Below, one piece after another: positions 56,101-58,720 of a DNA stretch of 64,000 nucleotides. This DNA comes from an uncultured Lachnospiraceae bacterium. Lineage in GTDB: Bacteria; Bacillota; Clostridia; Lachnospirales; Lachnospiraceae. The stretch spans positions 1-64,000 of the forward strand of contig CALWSG010000004.1 of the NCBI GenBank assembly GCA_944384155.1. Reading direction: 5' to 3'. Below the pieces are notes generated by a model. That model did no database searches and was not told the DNA's origin. It saw only the letters and a list, made by a program, of their open reading frames with translations. The translations under genes were made by a program, and so were the position numbers. The number at the start of each line of letters is the position of its first letter. Within the stretch, counting starts at the first letter, position 1.

Positions 56101-57045
56101 ATGCGAAAAAAAAACATACGAAAACAGCTGCTTAAAATATGTGCTTTTATCTTTGCCGTCATTGCTTTTCCCTCCATTACAACCATGCTTATGAACGGCA
56201 AAATGCCTCAAAGAATTTATTCCGCAGGCACAAGCGGAAAATATGTAGTAGTAACAACCGGAGGGATTACAGAAAATCTGGATGTTGAAGATTTTATTCC
56301 ATGTGCCGTAATGGGACAGCTTTCCATCGACAATGACGAGGAGCTTTTAAAAAGCTTTGCCGTCATTATGAGAACCTATATTTTGTCAGCTATGGGAAAC
56401 GAAACAAGCATACCTTCGGAAAAACTAAATATTCCCTATGTGACATATGACGAGATGGAAAAATTGTGGGGTGATAATTTCCCCGATAATTATAATAAGC
56501 TTATGAAAATAGTTTCGGACACATCTCTTGTTACCATTACCTTAAATGGTGAACTTATAGCTCCCTATTATCACAGCGTCAGTGCAGGAAAAACCCGTGC
56601 GGGAACAGAGGTTATGGGAGAGGACTTTGCCTATTTGTGCTCCGTAAGCTGTCCCGATGATACCTCGTCACCTGACTACTTCAAGGCTTACTATTACAGC
56701 AATGAGGAATTTGCCGTTAAGGTACGTGCTATTGATGAAAATATATCTATAGATAATGCTTCTCCTCTTGAAACGTTACAGATAATATCAAGAGATTCTG
56801 CCGGATATGTATTAAATATGTCTATAGGAGGCATATCAATAGACGGAACAAAATTTTATGAAGCAATGCAGATTAATTCTCCGTCATTTATGATAGAGGA
56901 ATATGACGGCGGCGTGCGAATTACCACATACGGCACAGGCCACGGAATGGGAGTCAGCCTTAATTATGCAGCAAGTCTTGCCGCAGGCGGTTCATCATAC
57001 ATAGAAATTCTTCATTATTTTTATACTAATACAGAAATAAAATAA
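56101..57045 (+). CDS. spoIID: SpoIID-like protein with a Glu-to-Gln change at the catalytic site
   Basis: SpoIID cuts glycan strands during engulfment of the forespore. The 314-residue protein has one N-terminal membrane anchor (about 11-30) and the SpoIID domain (VEDFIPCAVMGQLSIDNDEEL..., RTYILSAMGN). The family motif V-x-x-E-M is AVMGQLS here, so the usual catalytic Glu is Gln73. The zinc-type residues His158, Cys180 and Cys184 (YYHSVSAGKTRAG..., YLCSVSC) remain. I chose the ATG at 56101 behind GAAGGGAG. A SpoIIQ-like gene follows after about 70 nt. Confidence 0.82.
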   Translation: MRKKNIRKQLLKICAFIFAVIAFPSITTMLMNGKMPQRIYSAGTSGKYVVVTTGGITENLDVEDFIPCAVMGQLSIDNDEELLKSFAVIMRTYILSAMGNETSIPSEKLNIPYVTYDEMEKLWGDNFPDNYNKLMKIVSDTSLVTITLNGELIAPYYHSVSAGKTRAGTEVMGEDFAYLCSVSCPDDTSSPDYFKAYYYSNEEFAVKVRAIDENISIDNASPLETLQIISRDSAGYVLNMSIGGISIDGTKFYEAMQINSPSFMIEEYDGGVRITTYGTGHGMGVSLNYAASLAAGGSSYIEILHYFYTNTEIK

Positions 57046-57118
57046 AAATTTTTTTAGTGCATAATAACATACCTTAAGGCAACACTATTAGTAACAATAG
57101 TGATTGGAGGTTATAATT

Positions 57119-57907
57119 ATGCGTTATAGAAAAAATATTTTCCGGGACAAAACCTTTCTTACAATGGCAGGAGTTACTGTTCTTGCTGTTGCCGCCATTG
57201 CCGGAGGCGTTATGCTAAACAACAGCGAAACACAGCCTGAAACAAGTCAAATTGCCGACTTAAACGAAAATAATGATAAGGATTCAACCTTGAGCACCAA
57301 TGATATTGCCGCCAACAACGGTGCCACAAAATCCACAAAAGAATATGGTACAGACTCTGACTTAACCAATAATGGCTCTGAAGACGAAACCACCACTTCT
57401 GGGGAATCTGAAACCTCAGAAAACCAACAGTCAGGTGAGGATAATGTAAATGAAGCCGGTGCCGGAGTTTCAGGCTTCTCCTTTTCTGCCGACAGCACTC
57501 TTGTATGGCCTGTGGAAACCAACGATATTATAATAGATTACAGTCCTGATGCTACAGTTTATTTTGCCACTCTTGACAAATATAAGACAAGCAATGCAAT
57601 ATCCATACGAAGTGAGGTTGGCACCCCTGTTTATGCAGCCGCTTCAGGTACTGTATGCGATATTGGATATAATGAAGAAATCGGTAATTCCATATCTCTG
57701 GACCTTGGAAGCGACTATACTCTCCAGTATGGGCAGATAAAGGATATACAGGTTTCCGAAGGTGATGTTGTAAGCGAAGGTGATTTACTGTGCTATGTGG
57801 CTGACCCTACTAAATATTATTCAGTGGAAGGACCAAATTTATATCTTAAGCTGACACTTGGTGATACAACAGTTGACCCTCTTGACTATTTGGATTTTAA
57901 AGAATAA
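57119..57907 (+). CDS. SpoIIQ-like membrane protein with a degenerate LytM/M23 domain
   Basis: The 262-residue protein has a cytoplasmic N-terminus, one transmembrane helix (about 16-35), a Ser/Thr/Asn-rich linker (about 40-115) and a C-terminal LytM-like fold (about 120-262; SEVGTPVYAAASGTVCDIGY, LDLGSDYTLQYGQIKDI, VVSEGDLLCYV). The zinc ligands of active M23 enzymes are absent: HxxxD, YAHL and HLH positions read NAISI, YGQI and LYLK. Position after spoIID and the degenerate domain fit SpoIIQ, which forms the engulfment channel with SpoIIIAH. I chose the ATG at 57119 behind GGAGG. Confidence 0.78.
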   Translation: MRYRKNIFRDKTFLTMAGVTVLAVAAIAGGVMLNNSETQPETSQIADLNENNDKDSTLSTNDIAANNGATKSTKEYGTDSDLTNNGSEDETTTSGESETSENQQSGEDNVNEAGAGVSGFSFSADSTLVWPVETNDIIIDYSPDATVYFATLDKYKTSNAISIRSEVGTPVYAAASGTVCDIGYNEEIGNSISLDLGSDYTLQYGQIKDIQVSEGDVVSEGDLLCYVADPTKYYSVEGPNLYLKLTLGDTTVDPLDYLDFKE

Positions 57908-57976: not shown

Positions 57977-58150
57977 TTATTTATATTCCTCAATCAACTC
58001 TGCAATAGTGTCAACACATCCTCCGCACACAGTTCCCGCTGAAGTAGCTTCCTGCACGGCTTCTACGGTTGTGGCACCGGCCTCAACAGCAGCTTTAATC
58101 TCTCCTGCCGTAATACCCATGCAATGACATACTGTTTCATTTAAATCCAT
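57977..58150 (-). CDS. BFD-like [2Fe-2S]-binding small protein
   Basis: A 57-residue protein of the bacterioferritin-associated ferredoxin fold. The four cysteines lie in VCHCMGIT and SAGTVCGGCVDTI, the Fer2_BFD pattern. These proteins shuttle electrons or sense iron and redox state. I chose the ATG at 58150 behind GAAGGAGG. It follows the rubrerythrin gene after about 28 nt, so it may feed electrons to it. Confidence 0.85.
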   Translation of the reverse strand: MDLNETVCHCMGITAGEIKAAVEAGATTVEAVQEATSAGTVCGGCVDTIAELIEEYK

Positions 58151-58177: not shown

Positions 58178-58720
58178 TTAGCCAAAATATCTGTTTAAAA
58201 GACCTTCAAATGCCTTGCCGTGTCGTGCTTCATCTCTTGCCATTTCATGTACTGTGTCATGGATAGCATCAAGATTTGCCTGCTTTGCTCTTACTGCAAG
58301 GTCTACCTTTCCAGCCGTAGCACCATTCTCAGCATCTACTCTTAACTGAAGGTTCTTCTTTGTGCTGTCTGTTACAACCTCTCCTAACAATTCCGCAAAC
58401 TTAGCTGCATGCTCTGCTTCCTCCCATGCTGCCTTTTCATAGTATAATCCGATTTCAGGATATCCCTCTCTGTGAGCAACTCTTGCCATAGCAAGGTACA
58501 TACCTACTTCTGTACACTCTCCCTCAAAGTTTGCTCTAAGGTCAGCCTTAATGTCCTCGCTTACATCTGCTGCTACCCCAACTATATGTTCTGCTGCCCA
58601 TGTTCTTTCCTCTCCCATGAGTTCAAACTTATCTGCAGGTGCCTTACATACAGGACATACCTCCGGTGCGCTGTCTCCCTCATATACATATCCACATACT
58701 TTACATACATATTTTGCCAT
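58178..58720 (-). CDS. Reverse rubrerythrin
   Basis: A peroxide- and oxygen-detoxifying non-haem iron protein. The 180-residue protein has the rubredoxin domain first ([12 protein letters not shown] and CPVCKAP), and then a ferritin-like diiron domain with Glu-rich helices ([54 protein letters not shown]). That order defines reverse rubrerythrins of clostridia, which are usually controlled by PerR. A perR gene lies directly upstream. Confidence 0.93.

Follow-up and report, generated by a model that had tools for sequence, protein, structure and literature searches.

The spoIID and spoIIQ genes of the window

The window is the whole stretch of 64,000 nucleotides that was analysed (contig CALWSG010000004.1, positions 1–64,000), and it belongs to the genome of an uncultured Lachnospiraceae bacterium (2.21 Mb, 99.96% complete). 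On its forward strand, a spoIID orthologue (56101–57045, 314 aa) encodes an amino terminal membrane helix followed by a complete SpoIID fold. The adjoining spoIIQ-like gene (57119–57907, forward strand, 262 aa) supports the assignment of SpoIID as an orthologue by position. Across the family, a spoIIQ-like gene (E < 1e-30) was found in the fetched stretch at 95 of 103 SpoIID loci, and the two genes are also described as sharing one operon in C. difficile (PMC4982068). A scan of the gene strand for sigma-70-type promoters, a type that excludes sporulation promoters, gave no match. Beyond the pair, a short frame of 57 aa on the reverse strand (57977–58150) contains four cysteines (CHC...CGGC) and resembles by eye a small iron-sulfur protein; it adjoins a gene that is rubrerythrin-like, also by eye (58178–58720).

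The AlphaFold (AF2) model of the window SpoIID has a high accuracy score (pLDDT = 94.7) and superimposes well on the crystallized protein from C. difficile (PDB: 5i1t_A, Z: 31.2, rmsd: 2.2 over 272 residues, 30% identity). The same fold is found in C. difficile entry 5txu and in Bacillus anthracis SpoIID (PDB: 4rwr, Z: 28.1), and a re-comparison of the structures listed by Foldseek contained no chain above Z 5 other than SpoIID and SleC. The SpoIID_LytB profile matches the protein with 103.1 bits, above its cut-off of 83.3, and the NCBIfam SpoIID equivalog TIGR02870 matches it with an E-value of 1.9e-49 and 168.6 bits, below the cut-off of 234.75 bits. While the homology and the fold are those of a SpoIID lytic transglycosylase, the catalytic glutamate, a TIGR02870 score above the cut-off and the clostridial zinc loop are all missing.

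The initial annotation had claimed that the catalytic glutamate was replaced, and the alignment bears this out. In the sequence ...DFIPCAVMGQLSIDN..., Gln73 (codon CAG, 56317–56319, forward strand) occupies the column of C. difficile Glu101. An acidic residue, Asp77 (codon 56329–56331, forward strand), is located four residues further on and was considered as a candidate for a relocated catalytic acid.

A second claim, that the zinc-type Cys/His residues of SpoIID are kept, proved incorrect. The window protein lacks the C. difficile loop formed by H134, C140, H145 and C146; it presents Asn110 at the C140 column and is gapped in the three others. The C140 column is a cysteine in 83 of 89 rows from the class Clostridia outside the family, as is the C146 column, compared to 1 and 0, respectively, of 100 family rows. 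The SpoIID proteins of Bacilli are likewise described as having no zinc loop; however, they keep the glutamate that the window protein has lost (PMC6934232). A further family-specific change is found at the C. difficile Glu203 column, which is glutamate in 96% of the rows outside the family and arginine in 85 of 100 family rows (0 of 89 outside). This arginine, residue 166 of the window protein, is present whether the catalytic glutamate is kept or lost.

The SpoIIQ-like protein may be considered in terms of a predicted membrane helix, a low-confidence linker and a degenerate LytM (Peptidase_M23) domain spanning residues 158–254 (57590–57880, forward strand), with a mean pLDDT of 71.8 for the model. 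The M23/LytM domain, the predicted amino terminal membrane helix, the position beside spoIID and the presence of SpoIIIAH in the genome are those expected of SpoIIQ. The NCBIfam SpoIIQ equivalog NF053738 matched with 38 bits, below its 250-bit cut-off; this model was presumably built for Bacilli, going by its short name. As stated in the initial annotation, no zinc ligand is left: the HxxxD, middle His and HxH columns read Ser158, Ser162, Leu196, Asn240 and Tyr242, and the HxxxD and HxH motifs of an active LytM endopeptidase are thus absent.

This loss extends across the family, where the full ligand set was found in none of 96 SpoIIQ proteins and a single histidine was kept in 14. The first His column contains N (86) or S (10), the Asp column is mostly I, V, L, M or A, and the middle His is replaced by L, M, I, V or F. 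At the HxH motif, N occupies the first position in 79 proteins, with H remaining in 14, and the second position is Y in 80 and F in 14, so that N at the first column and N-x-Y at the last two are the usual replacements. Outside the family, HxxxD and HxH are both present in 52 of 63 SpoIIQ proteins. With no complete ligand set among the 96, SpoIIQ appears to be disarmed in every family protein examined, whereas SpoIID varies. There are precedents for a SpoIIQ of this kind. The B. subtilis protein (PDB: 3uz0, 3tuf), which is matched by the family profile, has a LytM domain that does not act as a zinc enzyme and works in a zipper with SpoIIIAH, a protein that the window's genome also encodes. It is described as having a serine in place of one histidine (PMC4982068), whereas the window protein retains no ligand. 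In C. difficile, the H120S substitution in SpoIIQ is reported not to block engulfment wholly (PMC4982068).

Distribution and evolution of the catalytic glutamate

The initial annotation had proposed an alignment of Lachnospiraceae SpoIID proteins at the catalytic position. A survey of 200 Lachnospiraceae genomes, one per genus listed, led to 103 fetched loci that represent 100 genera and three more species of the window's genus; a follow-up profile search, judged by score and frame length, added no further full-length orthologue. At the glutamate position, the 103 loci read E (36), Q (34), S (10), Y (4), R, V and A (3 each), T and N (2 each), M, C, D, I and L (1 each) and a gap (1). When three fragments (L094, L106 and L107) and the three extra species are set aside, 97 genera remain, of which 34 have Glu and 63 do not (32 Gln and 31 others, including one Asp and one gap). 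The replacement is therefore not a quirk of a single strain, and the four species of the window's genus themselves read Q, Q, T and S.

As a control, the class Clostridia was searched with TIGR02870, which matched 198 of 245 genomes, 135 of them above the cut-off. Ninety loci were examined, comprising the 30 best and 60 chosen among the matches listed, with some genera represented several times. Glutamate was present in all 89 loci from outside the family; all of these scored above the cut-off, so that diverged SpoIID proteins outside the family could have been missed. The sole Gln (L251) belongs to the same family and scored below the cut-off. A scan of named genomes, in which the best 80 of 568 relatives read Q (43), E (32), N (4) and S (1), does not provide frequencies because one of the two search patterns requires Gln. 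Among these best 80, Gln-type proteins were found in [Clostridium] symbiosum ATCC 14940, [Clostridium] citroniae WAL-17108, Coprococcus catus and Enterocloster alcoholdehydrogenati, and Glu-type proteins in, among others, Anaerosacchariphilus polymeriproducens. The published high conservation of this glutamate in clostridia does not hold in Lachnospiraceae, and the statement needs qualifying. No account of its loss in the family was found among the titles and abstract openings of the literature searched, which lies largely outside subscription journals.

A quick maximum likelihood tree of SpoIID was built with the glutamate column left out. The family rows separate from the outgroup (99*), and no fewer than 17 changes from Glu to non-Glu or back are required, 16 of them within the family. 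Seven independent contrasts lie on well-supported (starred) branches, compared to no loss in 89 loci outside; the loss in the family, with at least 16 changes, is more than chance. Its pattern differs between clades. One clade of 16 rows is entirely Gln, and an alignment of nine of its genera has 47 invariant columns, the Gln among them, although the rows are only 44–76% identical to the first. The residues in the 13-row clade that contains the window are Q, Q, T, S, V, Q, M, R, Y, A, E, R and R.

SpoIID is an open frame of 274–459 aa in 97 of 97 genera, and both Gln codons are in use (68 CAG and 9 CAA, with some genomes counted twice). For 10 of 12 Gln–Gln pairs, dN/dS lies between 0.055 and 0.194, rough values given that dS exceeds 1 in nine of the ten; the other two pairs are saturated. 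These low ratios indicate that Gln-type spoIID genes are under purifying selection and are maintained by it. Since 34 genera keep Glu, the residue still seems useful in some lineages.

Other positions were compared between Glu and non-Glu rows. Acids gained by the family at positions 269 and 287 (C. difficile numbering) were considered as compensation for the loss of Glu and rejected, since the acid at 287 is at least as frequent in Glu-type rows, that at 269 is about equal, and the window protein has Thr at 287. Losses at R290, Q114, H318, Q324 and S323 accompany the loss of Glu with Fisher p-values from 0.0002 to 0.11 before tree correction, those of R290, Q114 and H318 being more frequent in non-Glu rows. 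On seven independent pairs none of the five was significant, with too few differing pairs for the test to reach significance.

Sporulation genes and gene order

Spo0A, SpoIIP, SpoIVA and SpoIIIAH are all encoded in the window's genome, and frames labelled by eye correspond to spoIIIAA, AB, AD–AG and spoIVB (AC is too short for that listing). Its SpoIIP keeps HTH, DIHRD and GAQTNSLQE, the three motifs named in PMC6934232. Among the 63 non-Glu genomes, SpoIIP is present in 63, Spo0A in 62, SpoIVA in 62 and SpoIIIAH in 61. Within the 97 genera, SpoIIP is missing in one (Glu), Spo0A in two (one Glu, one other), SpoIVA in four (three Glu, one Gln) and SpoIIIAH in two (both other), and no association was found between the loss of Glu and the absence of any of these four genes.

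SpoIIM, which the initial annotation had listed for checking together with spoIIP and spoIIIAH, is the one of the three for which there is only a weak candidate. The model TIGR02831 reached its cut-off in none of the 200 family genomes, and for this reason the presence of SpoIIM was not used as evidence. To judge from these scores, the SpoIIM of the family has either diverged strongly or been replaced, and its absence from two species classified as Lachnospiraceae at the time has been noted (PMC3416734). The window's genome contains a very weak match of 220 aa (G000:C54:44830-45402; L312:819-1481, reverse strand).

Marseille-P2415, which is similar to Clostridium sp. 12(A), is kept by NCBI in unclassified Clostridium; we take Clostridium sp. 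12(A) to belong to Lacrimispora. Endospores have been seen by microscopy in Lacrimispora species (PMC12578346, PMC11806200). For the Gln-type [Clostridium] symbiosum, a survey of endospore formers in heat- and chemically treated infant faeces reports 40 isolates, the evidence being recovery after treatment and not spores seen (PMC10655253).

SpoIID can also be absent altogether. Among the 136 genera that have SpoIIP, SpoIID went undetected in 36, is fragmentary in three (G040, G060 and G070) and is cut by contig ends in one (G001). The 36 genera, exemplified by G024, G027, G099 and G105, include 30 assemblies that are at least 90% complete and 35 with SpoIVA, and SpoIIQ is present in 32 of them (E-value of 1.1e-48 or better). 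In eight such loci that were read, the SpoIIQ ligand columns are N, I/V/L, L/I, N and Y, and the 2.4–3.9 kb stretch contained no recognisable SpoIID remnant. The signature of the genus Lachnoclostridium is described as lacking SpoIID and SpoIIQ (PMC7924749). This reported absence may be due in part to divergence, and the statement needs qualifying for the family; real absence of SpoIID also occurs, in the 36 genera above. In three genomes, the order spoIIP–spoIID–spoIIQ was noticed (G016:C190:3267-5252, G096:C16:8350-9911 and G174:C83:15958-17712), with 31–67 bases between the spoIIP and spoIID matches.

A proposed role for SpoIID without glycan cleavage

The preferred explanation, which is considered probable, is that the SpoIID of this family is a non-catalytic engulfment protein, most likely serving the intact amidase SpoIIP as a scaffold or helper, and that glutamate-dependent glycan cutting is dispensable in much of the family. 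A retained fold, a lost glutamate, retained neighbours and an intact SpoIIP fit a non-catalytic partner. From published work, the E101A mutant of C. difficile SpoIID is inactive and does not support spore formation, and the enzyme acts only after SpoIIP (PMC6221140). Stimulation of SpoIIP has been reported for a B. subtilis SpoIID that was itself inactive (Morlot et al. 2010, via PMC6934232); however, the effect is reported as not reproduced with C. difficile proteins (PMC6934232). The SpoIID/LytB domain of LytB-type amidase enhancers has also been proposed to stimulate a partner amidase, a likeness drawn from the same review (PMC6934232). Other points count against the preferred explanation: the mutant evidence described in this literature concerns substitution of the glutamate by Ala and not Gln, Glu is kept in 34 genera, and, with SpoIIM so diverged, the SpoIIDMP set of partners cannot be assumed.

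The initial annotation would have been overturned by a different glutamate in the catalytic place or by a second intact SpoIID in the genome. No other glutamate is located there, and it is improbable that the acid four residues on (Asp77 in the window) has taken over the catalysis. While such an acid is present in 73% of Gln-type, 52% of other non-Glu and 32% of Glu-type family rows and in 17% of outside rows (41 of the 66 non-Glu rows compared to 11 of the 34 Glu rows; Fisher p = 0.006, uncorrected for the tree), the association loses its significance after tree correction (seven independent pairs, median p = 0.63, little power), and 25 of the 66 non-Glu rows have no acid at this place. C. 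difficile SpoIID has Glu105 at the same place, yet its E101A mutant is reported as dead (PMC6221140). As a result, the relocated acid was discarded. The matter of a second SpoIID is less clear-cut, since a glutamate-bearing protein with a SpoIID/LytB domain does exist in the window's genome (809 aa, VVPSEMP). Of 80 family genomes searched, made up of the 63 non-Glu genera and 17 of the 34 Glu genera, 72 have at least two PF08486 matches. With its Glu intact in the window's genome, the one genome checked for the residue, the paralogue there could cut glycans. That the long paralogue does so during sporulation is nonetheless rather unlikely. Its neighbours in the window's genome include, by eye, a phosphoenolpyruvate carboxykinase-like and an AraC-like protein, and no sporulation gene was recognised among them; genome G039 has no Spo0A match, yet contains weaker SpoIID-domain matches. 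In four of the 63 non-Glu genomes (G157, G143, G026 and G063), three of them 97–99% complete, the Glu-less SpoIID is the sole PF08486 match. The paralogue therefore cannot be a general answer, although it may help in many genomes.

Of the three interpretations offered in the initial annotation, the loss of sporulation fares worst. SpoIID is undetected in 36 SpoIIP-bearing genera and fragmentary in three more, and R290, Q114 and H318 are lost more often alongside Glu (before tree correction), as might be expected if the loss of Glu were an early step of gene death. There is little chance of this given that Glu and non-Glu genomes do not differ in their retention of sporulation genes, with spo0A, spoIVA, spoIIIAH and a spoIIP with its catalytic motifs present in the window's genome, that the spoIID frames are open throughout and Gln–Gln dN/dS is low, and that a Gln-type species, [Clostridium] symbiosum, is reported as an endospore former (PMC10655253). 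The proposal that the pair became a structural module fits in part; however, since SpoIIQ is kept in 32 of the 36 SpoIID-less genera, the pair is not obligate. A related possibility is that SpoIID has another job unrelated to SpoIIP, for instance solely as a binding partner of SpoIIQ and SpoIIIAH, both of which C. difficile SpoIID binds strongly in two-hybrid tests (PMC6934232). The frequent adjacency to spoIIQ and family-specific changes such as Glu203 to Arg agree with this, but the persistence of SpoIIQ without SpoIID does not, and the adjacency of spoIIP and spoIID in G174, G096 and G016 argues that the link to SpoIIP is kept; such a job is conceivable, yet doubtful. That engulfment needs no lytic activity of SpoIID fits best of the three. 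More specifically, the balance tips slightly towards spore formers of the family engulfing without SpoIID glycan cleavage, with SpoIID a pseudoenzyme (its Gln fixed in one clade) or lost, SpoIIQ without ligands family-wide, and SpoIIP the sole wall hydrolase of the known engulfment set.

In the proposed mechanism, the window would contain the spoIID–spoIIQ pair of a remodelled engulfment machine that is spread across the family. SpoIIQ, with a LytM domain lacking the zinc ligand set in all family proteins examined, would by analogy form the forespore half of a SpoIIQ–SpoIIIAH zipper or channel. SpoIID appears to have lost its clostridial zinc loop family-wide and then its catalytic glutamate many times, with Gln fixed in the 16-row clade and free variation in other clades, the window's clade included. 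We infer that SpoIID is lytically inactive; most likely it folds, binds the wall and serves as a partner by positioning or stimulating SpoIIP. With the amidase residues of SpoIIP intact in the window's genome, the septal wall could be thinned without glycan cutting by SpoIID through the known glutamate mechanism.

These natural pseudoenzymes offer a means to separate the catalytic role of SpoIID from its structural role. The loss of wall-cutting residues in much of a large gut family, at least one member of which is reported as spore-forming, calls into question a step thought to be essential for sporulation.
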